DNA from: a virus
IMG/VR virus record: IMGVR_UViG_3300040801_005901
Location: 1-21,518 of that record
Direction: 5' to 3' (one strand)
DNA: 21,518 bases
The translations under genes and the position numbers were made by a program. Below, piece by piece: positions 137 through 21,518 of the stretch (the first letter of the stretch is position 1; every line of letters begins with the position of its first letter). The notes below the pieces were generated by a model. The model was not told the origin of the DNA and ran no database searches. It worked only from the letters and a program-made list of their open reading frames with translations.

Positions 137-439
137 TTACCAAAATTTTACTTTTTCCTCGAGTTGAGGCGCTAAACGCAAAAACTCTTCATAATTTGAA
201 ACAATCTCTTCACCTGGGCTTATTTCTTTTTTTGCAAACAAAATTATATCACCCTTTTTTGTTTTTTTCAAAAACGTATTACTCTGCGCCTTTCCATGGT
301 TCACGTAATTACTCTTCAAAGAAAAAGAACCTTCCCCCTCACGCCAAATAATCATAATTTGTTCCCCCTTCTTCAAAGTAGAAGAAGCAAAAGCACCAAC
401 GCCATGTATTTTTGATTTACCAATGTAAATAGCTGCCAT
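137..439 (-). CDS. Small SET-domain protein (putative protein-lysine methyltransferase)
   Basis: A 100-residue protein made of little more than a SET domain, the fold that moves a methyl group from S-adenosylmethionine to lysine side chains. Visible signatures in order: the N-terminal GVGAFA motif (residues 13-18), an NH pair with a following Asn (N47, H48, N54) matching the NHxxxPN cofactor-binding element, and the C-terminal GEE-x3-NY element (76-83) with the catalytic-type Tyr at 83. There is no post-SET cysteine cluster. It is near the size of the compact viral vSET protein (about 119 residues). It sits 3 bases after a small tail protein gene and 1 base before the next gene, so it is co-transcribed with fibre genes. 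The fold call is fairly strong; the substrate is unknown and could be a virion, host or chromatin-like protein. Confidence 0.8.
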   Translation of the reverse strand: MAAIYIGKSKIHGVGAFASSTLKKGEQIMIIWREGEGSFSLKSNYVNHGKAQSNTFLKKTKKGDIILFAKKEISPGEEIVSNYEEFLRLAPQLEEKVKFW

Positions 440-5020: not shown

Positions 5021-5941
5021 TTAATCAGTTTTTGTCTTTTTTGAAAGAATACTGCTCAATTTCGCTTTTATTGCAGTGAATTCCGCTATATTGATAGGTG
5101 TACCACTCGGCCCAACACCTGTCGGCACTGTCAGCTTTTCTATGGCGCTTATGAGCTTTTCAAGCTCACCCTTCAAGGTTTCCCCCAAAACCAAACTTTC
5201 CTTGCCGCTGCCAAACAAAATTTCATCCGCTTTCAATTGATAATTTTTCGTTTCAATACTTATTTCCCCGTCCTTTATAGTTATTACATTTTCAAATTCG
5301 TCCTTCATCGTAAAACCAACACCCTTTTGATACTTTATAGATGTTGTTTTTTCATCATCATCTTTGTTTCTCACTAAAATTTCAAATTCCTTTTGAGTTT
5401 CAAGGAGAACCTTTTTTTTAGCAAATAAATGCGCCAAATGAGTTGATGACACTTTCCAGGCCCCTTCTGCCCCTGAAACCCTAAACTCCATAAAACCACC
5501 TTCAGGGTTGTCTGAAGAAAATGACATATCACCTTCTTCACCGTCTAAAGAAATACAAACAGAACTTTCGCCCTTAGACTTTACTATTTCCCAATAATTT
5601 TCCCTCAAAACAGATATGTCTACTTCCTTTTGATTTTGCCTCAAAGTGCCAACAACAACTGGGTAATTTTCCTTGTGTAAAGTCAAAAACACAACCAAAG
5701 TACCAAGCTGAAACTCACCCGCCTTTTCAGGAAATTCCAACCTTTTCATTATGTCAGCATCAACTGGAACATGATGAAAAATCTCATTTTCAAAAGTTGT
5801 AAAAGAAACTGTATTAGTAGAATAGCAATAATTAACAAACGCCTCCCTCTCCACCCCTTTCGGCAAAAAGACATAAGCCAGCCCCGCACTGGGCTTAAAG
5901 CCAGGCACTTTCCTCAAACCTAAATCCTGCTTCCTACTCAT
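5021..5941 (-). CDS. Baseplate spike / central puncturing protein (gp5-like, no lysozyme)
   Basis: A 306-residue protein with the plan of a trimeric tail spike. The N-terminal part (about 15-105) is consistent with an OB-type domain: a strand-rich region ending in FQLGTLVVFLTL, then YPVVVGTLRQ, the usual 'G..v.v.f......pvvlG.l' of gpV/gp5. Residues 110-250 are short alternating strands (ISLDGEEGDMSFSS, KKVLLETQKEFEILV, VITIKDGEISIETKNYQLKA), as in a beta-helix. The C-terminal stretch (257-300) has KGELEKLISAIEKL, TVPTGVGPSGTPIN and AIKAKLSSILSKK, a segment shared by many spike and gp5-like proteins. No lysozyme or other catalytic motif is seen. The start overlaps the hub gene by 8 bases and the next gene follows after 2, so hub and spike are translationally linked. 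Confidence 0.8.
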   Translation of the reverse strand: MSRKQDLGLRKVPGFKPSAGLAYVFLPKGVEREAFVNYCYSTNTVSFTTFENEIFHHVPVDADIMKRLEFPEKAGEFQLGTLVVFLTLHKENYPVVVGTLRQNQKEVDISVLRENYWEIVKSKGESSVCISLDGEEGDMSFSSDNPEGGFMEFRVSGAEGAWKVSSTHLAHLFAKKKVLLETQKEFEILVRNKDDDEKTTSIKYQKGVGFTMKDEFENVITIKDGEISIETKNYQLKADEILFGSGKESLVLGETLKGELEKLISAIEKLTVPTGVGPSGTPINIAEFTAIKAKLSSILSKKTKTD

Positions 5942-8624
5942 TAAACTGTTCTCTTTTCAAAAGTTTGTTGTAAATATCATTGTTAAACCTGAAAACCTTA
6001 TCTACTTGATCTTTTTTCTGTTTCTTCCCTTCAGGTAAATAACTCAACTTCAAGGTTGTACGTCTATTTTTCGCCCTATTTTTTGGTGAATCATTGCCTT
6101 GCTTGTCCTTGTTAGGGAAGGCGGGCTTTGATTCACCAAACGAAATAGTTTGCACCTCCACGGGCAAATCAGGGTATTCCCTTACTACAAGGGATTTTAC
6201 CTTTTCTGCCCTTCTTTTACCAAGATTGATGTTATAGGTGTCAGAACCTATGGAATCAGTATGACCTTCAAGGACAAAATTAGTTATATTTTGCGGCCCA
6301 ACACGGTCTATTATCTTCTTTACGTCTTCAAAAACTTTCTCATTTTCCTCTTGCCTTGTACCGTCCAAAGTATCTTGATTGAAATCAAAAAAGAAAAACA
6401 AGTCCTCCTCTTCACTTTTTTCACTTTGCGGATCATCTACCTTTCTTGTAACCTCATCAAAATCAACAATATCAAAATACCAATCTATTTTAGACTCTAC
6501 CACCCCCCTGCTCACAGTAAGAACTGTTTTTTCATCATAAGTAGTTTCGCTCACCGTAAAAGTGTGGCTAACAGAATCTACAAAAAATACTTCCCCTGTC
6601 CCCTTATGCCTCACATTCATGCCCCTTTTTATCCTTCTATCGCGCCTTATTGTTATTTGCCCCTTTCTCGTGAAAGGCAAATAAACATTGCTTTCTATCA
6701 AATACCTCAAATCATCAAGAGCAAGTTCTTTCAAATAGTCAAATGTTTCATCTTCTTCCGCCGTTTGTTTGAACATATCAAAAAACCCAACGTAATTTGA
6801 CTGTTGGTCTAAAGGCCTGCTCCCCCATATTTGGGCTATTCTTTTGAAGAAAACGGCTGGAAAATCAAGTTGACTGTACTGCTGTGACAAACCATTATAA
6901 ATGCCCTGCGGATTGAGCCTATACCAACTATAAACTTGACTGTCGTCCCACCTCAAATTATCGCTGTAAATATCGCCTTCATCTATATCTACAACGTAGT
7001 TTGTTGTAAACCCTTCTTTATCGAAAGGCGGTTTTCTAACTATCAAATAATAAAAAGGACCAAAGGTTTGTCCATAAAATTCCACAAAGGGCTTTTGACA
7101 AACCTTATTGATAAAAGAAAGCAAACTTCCTTGATGAGTTGCTAAACCGCTGTCAGCAACCCTTCTGTCCTCTACTGACTCATCAATAACAAGTTTTACA
7201 ATCGACCAAACCCCACTTATATTTTCAAATTTGTCTTCATCTGTTATCCTTTTGCTTAACTCTTCCTCATTGTAGCTTCCAAAAACATCTTCGTGGCAAA
7301 TTTCTACATGGCTCAAATTGTTGATTACATACTGTACTATCGTCCTTATATCTAAATCTTGTGTGAGTTTGAAAACATTCAAAGACCTATCAGCAAGCAA
7401 CCTTTTTGAGGCCTCTCCAATCTCTGAAATATCCTGGTATTTGAAAAACTGCCTGCCATTCACGGCATACATTTCTTGATTGAAAAAATACTCACCGTCT
7501 TCTATGAACAACTTCATCAAATCGCGGCCTTTCACACTCACTGTTATATTTGATTTGTCGGCATAGCTAACAGAACAAGAATCTACCAAACCTATACAAT
7601 CCCAAAAAGTCTCAGGAATTACAGAAGCACCAAGCTCTTGAGGAACGGAAATGTGTTTATGCCTTTTATATTTTTCTGGCCTCAACTTTTTTGAAATCTT
7701 CCTCCTCAACTCGGTGTACTTATCCCTCAAACCGCTCTCATCCTTTCTTATCTCTTCTTCGTGCTTTGTTTCTTTTTTATGGTGTGGTTCGCTATGAATT
7801 TCTTGTTCATTATGTTCAAACTCAAGTTCTTCAAAAGCTATGAAAATAAGGTCATTCGATTGTATAATCTTTGTAAACAAATCTATATTACGCCTGTACT
7901 TGTTTTGTTTTGTGTAATTTCTCGAGCCTTCTATGAAACTTTCAGATTTTTGATAATCTTGTTCTTGATAGGCTATACCAGCAAAATGATGTAAAAAATC
8001 AATATGGCTTTGAGTCGCTTGATACCCATGTATGTGATTTGCCTTCCACTTTTCTAAAAACTTTGAATCAATAGGGGGCAGACTTATAGAAAAATTGGCC
8101 CCGTTTTCCCCCTCATTCAAGGTCAAATTCATTATGAAAGGTGTCAAATCGAAAAACCCCCCCTGCGGTACACCATCTGTAGCAGGGCCAAGGGACTTGC
8201 TCCAAAGCACTACGCTCAATCTACTATAAAGTTTATGTATGCTGCCAACCTTACTGTCAGCCACCTTATTCAAGGGCGCATAAGAATCGTTTAAAAGCAC
8301 CCTTTTCATTTTTTCGTCATAGAAGGTTGGCGCATTTAAATACTTTTCCCTATTATTTGAAAAAGTTGCTCTAAAAAGGGATTCTTTGTTTATTTTTTCA
8401 ATAGGTACAATAATCAAAGGAGAACCAATAAACAAGTTTTCTTCAGGTACGTCTTGTTCATCTGAATCAAAAGAAGCCCTTTGCTCCTCAATACGGGCTT
8501 TATTGCCCCTGTAATTGAGGAACTCTTCTTGCTCCATATTGATCTTATAGTACGCCAATAAATTCTTTATTGTCGTGCCTTGCCTTATTGGCTTTGGAAA
8601 ACTTTTTATCTTTATATCAGCCAT
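5934..8624 (-). CDS. Baseplate hub protein with C-terminal OmpA-like peptidoglycan-binding domain
   Basis: An 896-residue protein. Residues about 135-720 look like a large tail hub (gp27/gpD-like): WSKSLGPATDG...FFDLTPFIMNLTLNEG, later VSVKGRDLMKLF, and strand-rich segments near 650-710 ending in a FVDSVSHTFTVS element typical of hub proteins. Residues about 268-325 form a highly charged, His/Lys/Glu-rich insert. Residues about 741-863 are an OmpA C-terminal-like domain: EGHTDSIGSDTYN (786-798), LGKRRAEKV (801-809), SFGES (828-832) and NRR (853-855). D790 and R805 are 15 residues apart, as the diaminopimelate-binding Asp and Arg of bacterial OmpA are. Its start shares one base with the tape measure stop (TAATG), and its end overlaps the spike gene by 8 bases. 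The OmpA call is strong; the hub call rests on order and weaker motifs. Confidence 0.82.
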   Translation of the reverse strand: MADIKIKSFPKPIRQGTTIKNLLAYYKINMEQEEFLNYRGNKARIEEQRASFDSDEQDVPEENLFIGSPLIIVPIEKINKESLFRATFSNNREKYLNAPTFYDEKMKRVLLNDSYAPLNKVADSKVGSIHKLYSRLSVVLWSKSLGPATDGVPQGGFFDLTPFIMNLTLNEGENGANFSISLPPIDSKFLEKWKANHIHGYQATQSHIDFLHHFAGIAYQEQDYQKSESFIEGSRNYTKQNKYRRNIDLFTKIIQSNDLIFIAFEELEFEHNEQEIHSEPHHKKETKHEEEIRKDESGLRDKYTELRRKISKKLRPEKYKRHKHISVPQELGASVIPETFWDCIGLVDSCSVSYADKSNITVSVKGRDLMKLFIEDGEYFFNQEMYAVNGRQFFKYQDISEIGEASKRLLADRSLNVFKLTQDLDIRTIVQYVINNLSHVEICHEDVFGSYNEEELSKRITDEDKFENISGVWSIVKLVIDESVEDRRVADSGLATHQGSLLSFINKVCQKPFVEFYGQTFGPFYYLIVRKPPFDKEGFTTNYVVDIDEGDIYSDNLRWDDSQVYSWYRLNPQGIYNGLSQQYSQLDFPAVFFKRIAQIWGSRPLDQQSNYVGFFDMFKQTAEEDETFDYLKELALDDLRYLIESNVYLPFTRKGQITIRRDRRIKRGMNVRHKGTGEVFFVDSVSHTFTVSETTYDEKTVLTVSRGVVESKIDWYFDIVDFDEVTRKVDDPQSEKSEEEDLFFFFDFNQDTLDGTRQEENEKVFEDVKKIIDRVGPQNITNFVLEGHTDSIGSDTYNINLGKRRAEKVKSLVVREYPDLPVEVQTISFGESKPAFPNKDKQGNDSPKNRAKNRRTTLKLSYLPEGKKQKKDQVDKVFRFNNDIYNKLLKREQFNE

Positions 8625-11885: not shown

Positions 11886-12290
11886 TTACAAAACTTCTGT
11901 TTTCATAACACCCCACTTCAAGGTTGCTACGTTCCTCAAATTATACTCCTCTTCCCTCACGCCATTAGTGAACGAAGCATCAGCAAACCTCACAAGAATA
12001 TCAAAAGACAGCATAACTTGAGAATTTTCATTCACATCTGCACCAAGTGTATCTTCCCTTAAAACCTCAAGGTTGATTTGGTTGTTATTGACTGAATCTA
12101 CAGACAAAGAACCGTAATTTGAAACAGAATCGCTTGAATAACTTTTGAATTCAGTTTTCACTTTGTTCTTTATGTAAGAACCCCGCACCCTTATCAAGGG
12201 AGCAGAAGACAAATCAACAGGTTGATTGTTTTCTACAATACTCAAAGGGATTATGACTGCTTCCCCTTGTTGAAAATTTATAGTGGCCAT
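11886..12290 (-). CDS. Unknown virion-type protein, paralogue 2
   Basis: A 134-residue protein related along its length to the adjacent 136-residue protein. Shared landmarks: FQQGEA with II and L (near 6-16), VDLS-A-..RV (near 26-37), a central EV-R-D-L segment, DA-F--G---EEYN--N, and a C-terminal G-MK-EVL. The N-terminal FQQGEAVIIPLSI...PVDLS pattern resembles the small beta domains at the start of BppU-type baseplate proteins, where 'kGdt..i.l.i.d..g.p.dls' is common. Predicted all-beta, no enzyme motif. An AAGGA element 5 bases before the ATG may be a genuine ribosome-binding site, unusual here. The place after the tube gene suggests a tube decoration, connector or second tube-like component; this is inference. 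Confidence 0.6.
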   Translation of the reverse strand: MATINFQQGEAVIIPLSIVENNQPVDLSSAPLIRVRGSYIKNKVKTEFKSYSSDSVSNYGSLSVDSVNNNQINLEVLREDTLGADVNENSQVMLSFDILVRFADASFTNGVREEEYNLRNVATLKWGVMKTEVL

Positions 12291-12302: not shown

Positions 12303-12713
12303 TTAAGGTGTGGGCAAAACTTCGTTTTTCATCTCCCCTACGTCAATAAAATACAAATTGGGGAAGTTGTATTCTTTTGGTGCTGTCCCGGAAGCAAACC
12401 TTGCGTCTGGCAAAGAAGCAATAAGATTAAAGCCTAAAGAAGAGGCAGAAAAATTCAAAGAATCTTGCCTTGTAACTTCAACTTGTGCTATATGTTCATT
12501 TCCTGCCCCGCTTTTCACCTTTGCCACCCCATAGCCAGCTTGAGGCACCAAACTGTACTTAGAAATGGCAACTTCATCACCATTTTGGTTTTTTTGAGTT
12601 GCCCAAACCCGCAACTGCGTTGCAGTCGACAAATCAACAGCGTTGCCATTGCCGTCAATGACAGGCAACTCAATAATTCTTGCTTCTCCTTGTTGAAATC
12701 TGCTTGTAGACAT
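12303..12713 (-). CDS. Unknown virion-type protein, paralogue 1
   Basis: A 136-residue, predicted beta-rich protein that begins MSTSRFQQGEARIIELPV with GNAVDLSTATQLRVWA following, and ends GEMKNEVLPTP. It pairs end to end with the next gene, from which it differs mostly in the middle (35-90). The ATG overlaps the tube protein stop by one base (TAATG), so it should be made with the tube, probably at high level. A 12-base gap separates it from its paralogue. Because the duplication lies within the shaft block and before the terminator, both copies are likely virion parts needed in many copies. I do not recognise a named family; a BppU-N-like or Ig-like fold is the best structural guess. Confidence 0.6.
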   Translation of the reverse strand: MSTSRFQQGEARIIELPVIDGNGNAVDLSTATQLRVWATQKNQNGDEVAISKYSLVPQAGYGVAKVKSGAGNEHIAQVEVTRQDSLNFSASSLGFNLIASLPDARFASGTAPKEYNFPNLYFIDVGEMKNEVLPTP

Positions 12714-17980: not shown

Positions 17981-18442
17981 TCAACCTTGTATCAATTCCC
18001 AAAAACACTTCTTTATTATTTGCACGTCTATTTCAGACATGTGCTTATCGTTCATACGATACATAGAATTTTCTCGAAATTTGTTAAACCTCGGGGCAAA
18101 TTGTTGTACCCTATCAACTCTAAAAAGCCTCCATTTTGGTGACTTTTTGCTTTTGCTTGTACCTTCATTGAGATAAGCCCTAAAAACCTTGTTGCCCGAA
18201 CTTTTATGTGTTCCTAAAGCAACAGGGCTTACATTTCTGTAGCCAGCCAAAACTTCCTCACCTCCAGGCCCCTTCTCTTCGTAATAAAAATCGATTTTGA
18301 ACCTTTTTCTTATGCAATAAGAAAGGGCTTCTTGTATAGTCTGATCTGACTTTTTGTAAACCTTCTTTATTTGCTTTATACGCTTGTCTTTTATATCTGG
18401 CAAACGTATGCTAATTTTTTCTTCTTGGTCTTCTTTTTTCAT
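17981..18442 (-). CDS. WYL-domain-like protein
   Basis: A 153-residue protein, basic, whose core (about 35-117) fits the WYL fold: an initial helix with IQEALSYCIRKR, strand KIDFYYEEKG, then RNVSPVALG (69-77), the VFRAYL strand (86-91) in the place of the signature W-Y-L, and WRLFRVDRVQQF (104-115), matching the 'R.FrldRI..v' end. WYL domains bind ligands or nucleic acids and are best known from transcription factors and CRISPR regulators. No DNA-binding helix-turn-helix precedes it; the first 35 residues are charged and helical. It lies between the head-tail adaptor and zinc-ribbon genes with 1-base gaps, so it is expressed as a virion gene. It may be a structural reuse of the fold. Confidence 0.6.
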   Translation of the reverse strand: MKKEDQEEKISIRLPDIKDKRIKQIKKVYKKSDQTIQEALSYCIRKRFKIDFYYEEKGPGGEEVLAGYRNVSPVALGTHKSSGNKVFRAYLNEGTSKSKKSPKWRLFRVDRVQQFAPRFNKFRENSMYRMNDKHMSEIDVQIIKKCFWELIQG

Positions 18443-18443
18443 T

Positions 18444-19277
18444 TTAGGCTGTGTTGAAGGAAAGCTCCCTGTATTTGCTTTTCAAAAGATAAAGCTGACC
18501 ACTATGCTTGTATTTTTGGTCTCCGTATAAGTCTGACATGTATTGCTTTATACGAGCACCATAAATGCCACTCTCAGCACTTTTCAACAAACTTGTACTT
18601 TGACTCAACCCGTCAAGGCTTATTGAAAAGGAATTCAAACCTACACCAAAAAATATATCGCCAAGTATGGCAAACAACTGAACGGCAGCCAACTTACCAA
18701 TCACATCAATAATTTCGGGCGGTATCTTATCAAAACCCGTCACATAAGTTGATTCCCAATAATTAGGGATGTACATACCCTTTGTAACAAGCAACATTGG
18801 CGAGGCCCCTAAAAAGTTTATACCACTAAACCTTTGTCCAGTCTTTTTTGTCCCCCCAGGAACAACATGAAAAGAACGGAAGTAAACTTGCCTGTCAACA
18901 TCAGAACTATTGGTTTCAGACCTTGTGCTCAACCAATCCTGAACGTATTCAACAACAGGTGTATCATTATAAATGCCATCAAGACTAAAGGCCCTTTTTA
19001 CAGGCCAAGTTGTACTGACAAAACCCCAATTCCTAAATTCCTCTATATCGAAAGAAGTCCTTTCTGAAACAACTTGCTTGAACAACTTTATTTTCAAGAA
19101 CTCCTCCACAGACCTTTGAGCAACTAAAATCTTTTGCCTCAAAGTTTCATAAGTCAGCTCTTCACCCTCTTTGGTACAAATTGGTATACCATGAAAATAC
19201 AATTCCAAAAGCTCACTGGGATTTATAGCGAGCTCTGGTTGGTTTTTAAACCTTATTTTTTGTTCAAGTTTAGCCAT
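18444..19277 (-). CDS. Head-tail connector / adaptor (gp6-like)
   Basis: A 277-residue protein. Motifs fit phage adaptor proteins that bind beneath the portal: an N-terminal helical part with a YETLRQKILVAQRSVEEFL helix, a middle strand section ending in YVTGFDKIPPEIIDVIGKLAA (178-198), the 'y..Gy..iP..i..ai..laa' element of gp6-like connectors, then SISLDGLSQSTS (218-229), a Ser-Gly motif found in adaptors of several large myoviruses, and the helix YGARIKQYMSDLYG. No enzyme motif. It follows the FAD oxidoreductase gene by 4 bases and precedes the WYL-like gene by 1. The family assignment is moderately secure. Confidence 0.6.
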   Translation of the reverse strand: MAKLEQKIRFKNQPELAINPSELLELYFHGIPICTKEGEELTYETLRQKILVAQRSVEEFLKIKLFKQVVSERTSFDIEEFRNWGFVSTTWPVKRAFSLDGIYNDTPVVEYVQDWLSTRSETNSSDVDRQVYFRSFHVVPGGTKKTGQRFSGINFLGASPMLLVTKGMYIPNYWESTYVTGFDKIPPEIIDVIGKLAAVQLFAILGDIFFGVGLNSFSISLDGLSQSTSLLKSAESGIYGARIKQYMSDLYGDQKYKHSGQLYLLKSKYRELSFNTA

Positions 19278-19281
19278 AACA

Positions 19282-20109
19282 TCAGTTTTTCATCATTTCA
19301 TAGCTCTTTTTGGCTAAATATCCCGCAAGTATCGTGCCGTTTTTAGCTGTGCCCGTCAAAACCAACAAATCTTTGTCCATTGACTTCACAAAATCAACAT
19401 CTCCACTTTTCAAATAGGGCCTGCAACCTTCCAAAACATCAACAATGTGCTTTTCCTTGAAACCAAAGTCAAAAAATTGGTCGTAAAGCCTTTGCTTGTT
19501 TTTTTCAACCATTTTCACAGAAGACTTTTTTTCTGGAAAAAAGTTGATAGAAGTTCCGTTAGCAAAATAAAAAAGCTCATTGTCCATTTCAAAACCAACT
19601 ATTTGTTTGTAAGGCATCCAGGCTTTGTAAATGTTTTCAGACAAAACCTTTTTTGAGTGAAAAACCATACCCCACTTTGGCGTAACATGAAGGGGCGGGT
19701 AATTTGACTTTTTCAACAAATCATCCACAACATGACCACAAGCTAAAACAACCTTGTCTGCCTCAAATTCCCCCTCTTTGGTCATTATTTTGTTGTTTGA
19801 AACAGCTTGAACTCGTTCTTCAAGAACTTCCACCCCCCCTATGATTCTTTCAGGAGGGCAATAATCAAATTCCTTACCCCCTAATTCTTTTTTTGTGATA
19901 GTTGCAAAATTCGAAAGCACCTCAAGACCTTCTTCAGCCATGGGTGCTATCGTTTTGTTGATAAAAGAAGAATTATAAATGCCAGCAGAGCACTTACTTG
20001 CAGCGTAAGGCGTCTTCACATCGAACAAAAAGCATTCAGCCCCTTGAGCTTCATAATACCTTTTGCACATTGAACCTATTATGCCACCGCCAACAACTAT
20101 TATTCTCAT
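19282..20109 (-). CDS. FAD-dependent oxidoreductase, DAO family
   Basis: A 275-residue enzyme-like protein. The N terminus is a Rossmann dinucleotide fold: VVGGGIIG (5-12) gives GxGxxG at G7, G9, G12, with the acidic D30 at the end of the second strand to bind the FAD ribose. AASKCSAGIYN (36-46) matches the 'aS..naG.l' element that contacts the flavin in DAO proteins. KVVLACG (119-125) is the second FAD motif. GCRPYLKSGDVDFV (228-241) and LVLTGTAKNGTILAG (249-263) match the C-terminal 'G.RP...D' and 'GH...G' parts. DAO enzymes oxidise amines, amino acids or glycerol-phosphate; at 275 residues this one is shorter than usual (about 370-400), so the substrate-binding domain is reduced. It lies between two head genes with 11- and 4-base gaps. 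The substrate is unknown. Confidence 0.82.
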   Translation of the reverse strand: MRIIVVGGGIIGSMCKRYYEAQGAECFLFDVKTPYAASKCSAGIYNSSFINKTIAPMAEEGLEVLSNFATITKKELGGKEFDYCPPERIIGGVEVLEERVQAVSNNKIMTKEGEFEADKVVLACGHVVDDLLKKSNYPPLHVTPKWGMVFHSKKVLSENIYKAWMPYKQIVGFEMDNELFYFANGTSINFFPEKKSSVKMVEKNKQRLYDQFFDFGFKEKHIVDVLEGCRPYLKSGDVDFVKSMDKDLLVLTGTAKNGTILAGYLAKKSYEMMKN

Positions 20110-20120
20110 GATGAAAAACT

Positions 20121-20519
20121 TTATTTTTCATCATTTGAACCTTCTTCGTCTTGTTCTTCTCCCCCCTTCAATTCACTTTCATCAATTTTTTGAAGCGCAA
20201 AAGCAACAAGCTCTTTTTTGCGCTTGGCGTTCTTCAAAATCTCTTTTTCCTCCACCCCCACGTCAAGCAAAATTTGCTTGATTTCTGAAACACTTTTAGA
20301 AGAAAGTTCTTCTTCAATGCCCTTTTCCACTTTTTGAGAAGCTTCTCCCTTGTCAAGAACAATTTCCCAACTTTCAATAGTAGCCACCTTGTCAGCAACA
20401 TTTTCTTCAACCTCTATGCAGCCGTTGGAGTCAAACTCTTTTTTGCCTACAATAGGTAAGTTGACTTGCTTAACACCTTGGTTGAACAAAGACAAATTTT
20501 GTATGAAAACCTTTCCCAT
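20121..20519 (-). CDS. Small head protein with HeH/LEM-like helix pair
   Basis: A 132-residue acidic protein directly after the capsid gene and its terminator. The N-terminal half is beta-like (FIQNLSLFNQGVKQVNLPIVG, then SNGCIEVEENVADKVATIESWEIV), resembling small proteins next to capsid genes. Residues about 74-112 (SKSVSEIKQILLDVG, then EEKEILKNAKRKKELVAFALQKI) form the two-helix pattern of HeH/LEM/SAP-like domains, often seen at the end of phage head proteins. The last 20 residues are acidic. A head-tail joining, scaffolding or minor head role is plausible; no further motif decides. The start follows AAAAAATAGTAAA with no Shine-Dalgarno. Confidence 0.55.
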   Translation of the reverse strand: MGKVFIQNLSLFNQGVKQVNLPIVGKKEFDSNGCIEVEENVADKVATIESWEIVLDKGEASQKVEKGIEEELSSKSVSEIKQILLDVGVEEKEILKNAKRKKELVAFALQKIDESELKGGEEQDEEGSNDEK

Positions 20520-20597: not shown

Positions 20598-21518
20598 TTA
20601 GGCTACATAGCTACCCACATTTATATACCTAACAATCCTCAAGGGGTTGTATACAAGCGGCGTTCCATAGAACAAAATCATGAAACGGTACGCAGGAGAC
20701 TCAATGGCCAAATCCATTTTCATTGGAGGCAAAAGCTGTGCAAACTCATACACAGTTTCATCAAGCTGGATCATATAGGCTTCAGTTGTATATGCCCATT
20801 TGCGGTTCCTATCGCGAACTACATACTCACCTGCGTTACCAGACGGAGTCGCACCATCATAAGCAAGGGCATCATCAACGCTCAAAGAAAAAACGGGATA
20901 AAATTTGGTAGAACCAGGTGCAGTGGCACCTTTGAGGCTACGGTAAACAATAAAGCCAGTAGCACGTTGATCATCTGTACCGCCTGTCCCAGCCTTGAAA
21001 GTCAGGTCAACAGCACCACCATTCACAATAGTAACAGGGGAACTATCAAGGGCGGTCAAAGAAGACTCACCATAATTGTTCACAGCAGCAACGGCATAAA
21101 TGTAATCACCAGCAAAATTACTTTCATTCGTACGGCCAGAAGGGGCGGTTTTCCAATTCGCTTTGCCGTCAGAACCAACAGCAGCAACAGGAGTTGTAAC
21201 ACCCGCAACAGAAGGGGCAATTGGCGCTTTGTCGCTTTGAGGCCCGTCAGTAATGAAGCGAGTTTGCTTTTGCTTCATGAACACGTCATGGTTCAAATTG
21301 ATAGAGCCAAATTGAGACTCAAAAGTTTGAACACGCTGACCAACCTGACCTTGGGAAATGGCTTCAGTATTGATAGGAATGAACTTATTGCCATAAAAGT
21401 TTTTGGTGAAGTTGGAAACGGCATCAGGAGAACCAACAAAATCAGTAGCCATACCAAAATCATTGGTAATGGATTCAGCCCCGTCAGACATATCACTTTC
21501 ACCAAGGGCCTTGCCTTC
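20598..21518 (-). CDS. Probable major capsid protein, 5' end outside the window
   Basis: The frame is open to the window edge, with nine codons (E-G-K-A-L-G-E-S-D) before the first visible Met at 21491, so the true start lies outside and 306 residues are visible. The C-terminal part (YMIQLDETVYEFAQLLPPMKMDLAIESPAYRFMILFYGTPLVYNPLRIVRYINVGSYVA, shown here by its outline: Y..QL..T...Q.LP.MK.DLA...P..RF...YGTP.VY.P......NVG) resembles the end of HK97-fold capsid proteins of large myoviruses. Residues about 88-212 after the visible Met look like an Ig/fibronectin-III insert (GDYIYAVAAVNNYGES, then TGFIVYRSLKG), as found on many capsid surfaces. A strong terminator follows, fitting a highly expressed gene. 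An alternative is a capsid decoration or other major head protein. Confidence 0.65.
   Translation of the reverse strand, partial: EGKALGESDMSDGAESITNDFGMATDFVGSPDAVSNFTKNFYGNKFIPINTEAISQGQVGQRVQTFESQFGSINLNHDVFMKQKQTRFITDGPQSDKAPIAPSVAGVTTPVAAVGSDGKANWKTAPSGRTNESNFAGDYIYAVAAVNNYGESSLTALDSSPVTIVNGGAVDLTFKAGTGGTDDQRATGFIVYRSLKGATAPGSTKFYPVFSLSVDDALAYDGATPSGNAGEYVVRDRNRKWAYTTEAYMIQLDETVYEFAQLLPPMKMDLAIESPAYRFMILFYGTPLVYNPLRIVRYINVGSYVA

Follow-up and report, generated by a model that had tools for sequence, protein, structure and literature searches.

The gene at 19282-20109 on the minus strand of the window (the whole stretch of 21,518 nucleotides analyzed here) very probably encodes a PaMx11 gp47-type flavin-dependent DNA-base lyase/oxidase, which would serve as a tailoring enzyme in the hypermodification of phage thymidine. 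This assignment is based on what was observed of the protein, namely, the family to which it belongs, its fold, and its conserved catalytic-site motifs, and on the pathway genes that accompany the family. Since the protein is kin to an enzyme that trims an amino acid on the thymines of viral DNA, it most likely helps to disguise the phage genome chemically from bacterial defenses, and serves neither particle building nor host metabolism.

The gene and its diagnostic codons are located as follows:

19282-20109, minus strand: homologue of the flavin-dependent DNA-base lyase (PaMx11 gp47 family), 275 amino acids, matched by Pfam DAO, phrog_16743, PDB entries 8z2o/8z79, and Foldseek.
20074-20091, minus strand: codons of residues 7 to 12, the GxGxxG dinucleotide-binding motif, with G7, G9, and G12 invariant in 54/54 homologues.
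19417-19422, minus strand: codons of Arg230-Pro231 in the G-x-R-P motif, both residues present in 54/54 homologues and aligned with glycine oxidase 7cyx.
19336-19344, minus strand: codons of Lys256-Asn257-Gly258 (KNG, flavin-side element), conserved in 54/54, 51/54, and 53/54 homologues, respectively.

The reading frame starts with ATG and encodes 275 residues with zero internal stops. The DAO-type FAD motifs are intact, namely, GGGIIG (G7/G9/G12), D30, S41-A42-G43, and the C-terminal TG-x-x-KNG, and Pfam DAO (PF01266) matched the protein above its cut-off (E value of 1.2e-13, 51.8 bits). The GC content of the gene (0.383) and its GC3 (0.380) equal the values of the neighboring genes, so that a high-GC Pseudomonas phage was rejected as a recent donor.

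The closest matches were obtained with the PaMx11 enzyme. Residues 1 to 267 matched the full length of phrog_16743, a family whose function label is "unknown" (E value of 4.6e-17). When the PDB sequences were searched with phmmer, the sole entries at an E value of ≤0.01 were 8z2o and 8z79 (1.6e-16, residues 3 to 268), which are listed there as flavin-dependent lyase and whose titles name the N-alpha-glycinylthymidine FAD-dependent lyase gp47/NGTO of Pseudomonas phage PaMx11. With a profile of 46 homologues, both entries reached an E value of about 1e-104, and the next best was glycine oxidase at 6e-12. An AlphaFold model of the window protein made from those 46 family homologues was confident (mean pLDDT of 88.9, pTM of 0.90), and its best PDB matches in Foldseek were again 8z79/8z2o (E values of 6e-22 to 2e-21, TM scores of 0.82 to 0.83). 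The next structure, CmiS2 (1.5e-13), was eight orders of magnitude behind, and the other listed matches had TM scores of ≤0.74 and larger rmsd values, consistent with a compact gp47-like fold as opposed to the full DAO fold. Within this known family of phage DNA-tailoring enzymes (PaMx11 gp47, phrog_16743), the window protein is a divergent member, from a phage lineage new to the family and with its gene at an unusual genomic position.

An earlier sequence-only reading had proposed an FAD-dependent enzyme of the DAO family, and this was borne out by the intact motifs, the Pfam match, and the confident model matching FAD enzymes. The structure prediction and comparison that it suggested returned an FAD-enzyme fold with gp47 (8z79/8z2o) as the best match. 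It had named as contrary evidence a structure lacking an FAD cleft, or absence of the gene from this position in relatives together with decay of the motifs; neither was found, since the protein retains its motifs and its model has an FAD-enzyme fold. Its view that the 275-residue length is a shortening special to this protein did not hold, as the PaMx11 lyase of known structure is 286 residues long.

The Pfam DAO match, the fold shared with glycine oxidase, and low-scoring NCBIfam hits for ThiO and D-proline dehydrogenase would also suit an oxidase of free amino acids or amines (resembling glycine oxidase, D-amino acid dehydrogenase, or sarcosine oxidase) that works on host metabolites during infection as the product of an auxiliary metabolic gene. 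However, the NCBIfam scores were far below the curated cut-offs for ThiO (TIGR02352, 33.3 versus 250.8 bits) and D-amino acid dehydrogenase (NF001933, 21.5 versus 383 bits), as they were for MnmC1 (TIGR03197, 19 versus 174.2 bits). In addition, the structural match to gp47 was far better, and the homologues are nearly confined to phages, where they travel with DNA hypermodification genes. A host-metabolite oxidase was rejected on the NCBIfam cut-offs and the fold ranking, and we consider it very improbable.

The gene company of the family points to DNA tailoring. Among phage records, matches were found in PaMx11-type phages, other Mesyanzhinovviridae, phage Simon, and one Rhizobium phage. The lyase gene of PaMx11, Sonora, and RHph_TM26 lies among genes for an amino acid:DNA transferase (ADDT), a kinase, and thymidylate synthase, and the neighbors in annotated phages include, in varying combinations, an acetyltransferase, ADDT (PF18724), HMUDK_hel (PF18723), a P-loop kinase, and a thymidylate synthase homologue. 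When IMG/VR was scanned with an alignment of the family, 57 lyase loci were found. PF18723, the helical domain of 5-hmdU DNA kinase, was present above its curated cut-off in 48 of the 49 homologue-bearing viral contigs, and PF18724 was present above its own in 47 of them; this co-occurrence is a property of the family in these 49 contigs and not an observation on the window's own genome. As a control, 50 viral contigs were selected through a 15-mer occurring by chance, which makes the set arbitrary and not strictly random; PF18723, the domain compared, was found in 1 of them. A pattern scan of 84,980 bacterial and archaeal genomes gave a single lyase locus, in a metagenome-assembled genome. 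Thus, the family is nearly confined to phages. It speaks against the assignment that no other hypermodification genes were found within the 21.5-kb window, which is the known part of this phage; they would be expected in its unsequenced part.

The surroundings of the lyase gene are formed by the following genes:

20598-21491, minus strand: major capsid protein on the upstream side of the slot (phrog_752, E value of 9.9e-32), with homologues in SPO1-like and Bacteroides phages.
20121-20519, minus strand: small gene in the capsid-lyase interval, present in relatives (40% identity over 60 amino acids to that of L126; 24% to that of L090, in the same position).
18444-19277, minus strand: head-tail connector-type protein (adaptor) downstream of the lyase (phrog_772, E value of 7.9e-25, labeled "tail" in PHROGs), syntenic with the capsid gene in relatives.

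Judged from its protein matches, the window is 21.5 kb of the genome of an SPO1-like myophage whose relatives include Bacteroides and Chryseobacterium phages. The capsid, adaptor, and sheath proteins match those of Bacteroides phages DAC16, DAC19, DAC20, DAC22, DAC23, and SJC03 and Chryseobacterium phage MA9V-3, with more distant matches in SPO1-like Bacillus phages, and these relatives suggest a Bacteroidota host. When the window lyase, adaptor, and sheath were used singly as queries against viral contigs, no close relatives were returned; alignment queries were needed instead, and the adaptor alignment gave 35 related viral contigs. Two further genes of the window have recognizable domains: 137-439 (minus strand) encodes a small SET-domain protein (PF00856, E value of 2.5e-7) with a lysine-methyltransferase-type fold in the phage tail region, and 5934-8624 (minus strand) encodes an 896-residue baseplate/hub-like protein with a C-terminal OmpA domain (PF00691, E value of 2.5e-11).

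The closest lyase homologue is carried by IMG/VR contig 3300042356_001663 (L012), with 34% identity and a sister position in the tree (support of 100/98). This 41-kb contig belongs to the same lineage: its capsid (43%) and adaptor (37%) genes, the small gene, and the genes that follow are syntenic with those of the window, and its portal is common to the lineage relatives. Its lyase gene lies near the portal in a hypermodification cluster that also contains a P-loop kinase-like gene and the genes for ADDT, an FkbM-like methyltransferase, and HMUDK_hel, whereas that of the window occupies the capsid-adaptor slot. The FkbM-like methyltransferase (13756-14466 of L012, PF05050) is encoded between ADDT and HMUDK_hel and may provide a further tailoring step in the lineage.

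HMUDK_hel was also found near the portal in five other relatives (G050, G051, G061, G062, and G064; L113-L117). Three of them (G050, G051, and G061) carry a divergent thymidylate-synthase-like gene scoring 91 to 104 bits, in a comparison where the ordinary thymidylate synthase of MA9V-3 scored 299 bits and PaMx11 gave 87 bits. As a further point against the assignment, neither ADDT nor the lyase was detectable in these five HMUDK_hel-bearing records, and counterparts of the ADDT and kinase of L012 were not detectable in the other relatives. Together, the L012 cluster and the HMUDK_hel and thymidylate-synthase-like genes of the relatives indicate that the lineage carries genes for 5-hmdU hypermodification. 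The kinase gene of G050 is located ~18 kb upstream of the capsid gene, and the equivalent site in the window would lie beyond its right end.

The lyase gene is separated by 11 bases from 20121-20519 and by 4 bases from 18444-19277. The head-module setting and tight spacing described in the sequence-only reading were confirmed by the coordinates, the phrog_752 capsid match, and the phrog_772 neighbor. This position between capsid and adaptor, with its very short gaps, would be expected if the protein were a virion-associated or head-maturation enzyme whose place reflects a role in the particle. However, a lyase homologue was found anywhere in none of 39 related records (0/39) and in the capsid-adaptor slot in none of 40 (0/40), including the L012 contig, whose slot holds nothing extra. 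The capsid-to-adaptor gap, taken from tblastn alignment ends, was 433 to 946 bases (median of ~600) in 28 of the 29 records measured, compared with 1,321 bases in the window. The exception was DAC16 (L070), whose slot is occupied by an unrelated protein, and the nearest relative by capsid and adaptor, L073, has an extra small gene there; therefore, the slot accepts insertions. Because the slot is without the lyase gene in all relatives checked, a role in the head module was rejected and is regarded as highly improbable. The earlier expectation that such an enzyme falls outside standard head assembly agrees with these counts. The search that it suggested, for the gene in the same slot of related phages, found it there in 0 of 40 records, and the gene is not a constant component of the head module in this lineage. 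The window lyase is thus a displaced or inserted pathway gene.

Some side observations concern other genes of the slot and of the head and tail modules. The DAC16 slot protein (7662-9383 of L070) has 573 residues and internal repeats and is without a Pfam match. The slot gene of L073 (9515-9910) is the single homologue of two paralogues in the tail region of the window (11886-12290 and 12303-12713, minus strand), which is evidence of gene shuffling between modules. A WYL-like small protein is encoded at 17981-18442 (minus strand) of the window (PF13280, E value of 0.012, below the cut-off), and that of L073 (12421-12834) has a different place in the head module.

The conserved residues bear on how close the reaction may be to that of gp47. 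The window protein keeps every position that is invariant in 54/54 homologues (G7, G9, G12, L65, G125, G147, P166, G185, G228, R230, P231, G253, and K256), and the motifs P166-Y167-Q169, R230-P231, and K256-N257-G258 are retained. In glycine oxidase, the Arg of the GLRP motif binds the substrate carboxylate. R230 aligns with this Arg, and KNG aligns with the RNG element, of glycine oxidase 7cyx. At near-invariant sites, the window protein has F49 for W (53/54), Y181 for W (52/54), A183 for G (52/54), and N184 for D (53/54). It is also the most divergent family member in the tree (branch of 2.65), with 20 to 34% identity to the others. Because of these replacements and this divergence, the substrate may differ from N-alpha-glycinyl-thymidine.

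Accordingly, a DNA-base lyase of the same family with a different substrate, such as another amino acid on thymine or another modified base, and a product base not yet described is a possibility that we hold to be unlikely but appreciable. The low identity, the long branch, and the departures at W49, W181, G183, and D184 speak for it, and the FkbM-like methyltransferase gene in the sister locus hints at another tailoring set. The three retained motifs speak against a changed substrate, as does the sister L012 lyase, which keeps the canonical W and D residues that the window lyase does not, and substitutions alone are no proof. A different substrate is a special case of the preferred reading, and its likelihood is not added to it. 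It is more doubtful that a lineage of probable Bacteroidota-infecting SPO1-like myophages, with a divergent flavin lyase of altered active-site/DNA-contact residues encoded in the late head operon, makes a hypermodified base other than N-alpha-glycinyl-thymidine/5-aminomethyl-dU. The long branch and the changed near-invariant residues could also mark a lyase that was acquired along with a hypermodification cluster and has since become nonfunctional or a drifting remnant, but the frame is intact at full length, the FAD-motif glycines, R230, P231, and K256 are kept, the model is confidently folded, and the operon spacing is compact, so that a remnant is very improbable.

For the preferred reading, DNA thymine tailoring, the following route is proposed. 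A thymidylate-synthase-like hydroxymethylase would allow the phage to make 5-hydroxymethyl-dU. After replication, 5-hmdU DNA kinase would phosphorylate the base in DNA, and the amino acid:DNA transferase would swap the phosphate for an amino acid, with glycine giving N-alpha-glycinyl-thymidine. Acting on duplex DNA, the flavoenzyme would then oxidize the C-alpha-N bond of the amino acid and so form an imine, whose hydrolysis would yield 5-aminomethyl-dU and release glyoxylate, with FADH2 reoxidized by O2. The window enzyme would perform this reaction, or one much like it, on phage DNA that has been replicated, and protection from restriction would be the purpose. The gene would owe its place in the late head operon to insertion or relocation, and late expression would suit a postreplicative step.

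The sequence-only reading had expected an unusual substrate, and this expectation agrees with the sequence, structure, and gene company, which favor tailoring in the hypermodification of phage DNA thymines. The same evidence left its suggested actions without support, namely, on a host metabolite, on a virion protein, through peroxide as the purpose, or as a packaged enzyme. Hypermodification of DNA thymine was not among its proposals, but MnmC was rightly listed for comparison.

Here, SPO1-like myophages with kin among the Bacteroides and Chryseobacterium phages are added to the range of the flavin-dependent DNA lyase family, whose previously known members, as far as the searched annotated phage records show, belonged mainly to Mesyanzhinovviridae siphophages. 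The window also shows that a DNA-tailoring gene can sit far from its pathway cluster, inside a head operon. Modified thymines are predicted in the virion DNA, and the window protein should be a useful divergent homologue for studies of substrate choice.

Among known systems, the MnmC FAD domain (MnmC1) offers the chemical model. It oxidizes the C-alpha-N bond of cmnm5U in tRNA to an imine, which is hydrolyzed to nm5U (PMC3648344). The same chemistry applied to N-alpha-glycinyl-thymidine would give 5-aminomethyl-dU, and the proposed reaction may thus be the DNA counterpart of this domain. Both proteins belong to the same superfamily and, by analogy, would share FAD-dependent oxidation of a glycine C-alpha-N bond on a 5-aminomethyl-uracil, whereas MnmC1 is larger and acts on tRNA (cmnm5U to nm5U). 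Glycine oxidase ThiO shares the DAO fold, and its GxRP Arg and (R/K)NG element align with the window protein, but it has about 370 residues and uses free glycine. The nearest system is PaMx11 gp47, whose reaction we take, from the PDB titles and the title of Wen et al. 2024 (cited in PMC11946847), to be the conversion of N-alpha-glycinyl-thymidine in DNA to 5-aminomethyl-dU. Homology to gp47 is full length at 24 to 27% identity (286 versus 275 amino acids), and the short DAO fold and the FAD, GxRP, and KNG motifs are common to both. The window protein differs in having F49, Y181, A183, and N184 where the gp47 family has W, W, G, and D, and its gene lies in the head operon of an SPO1-like myophage, whereas that of gp47 lies in a modification cluster.
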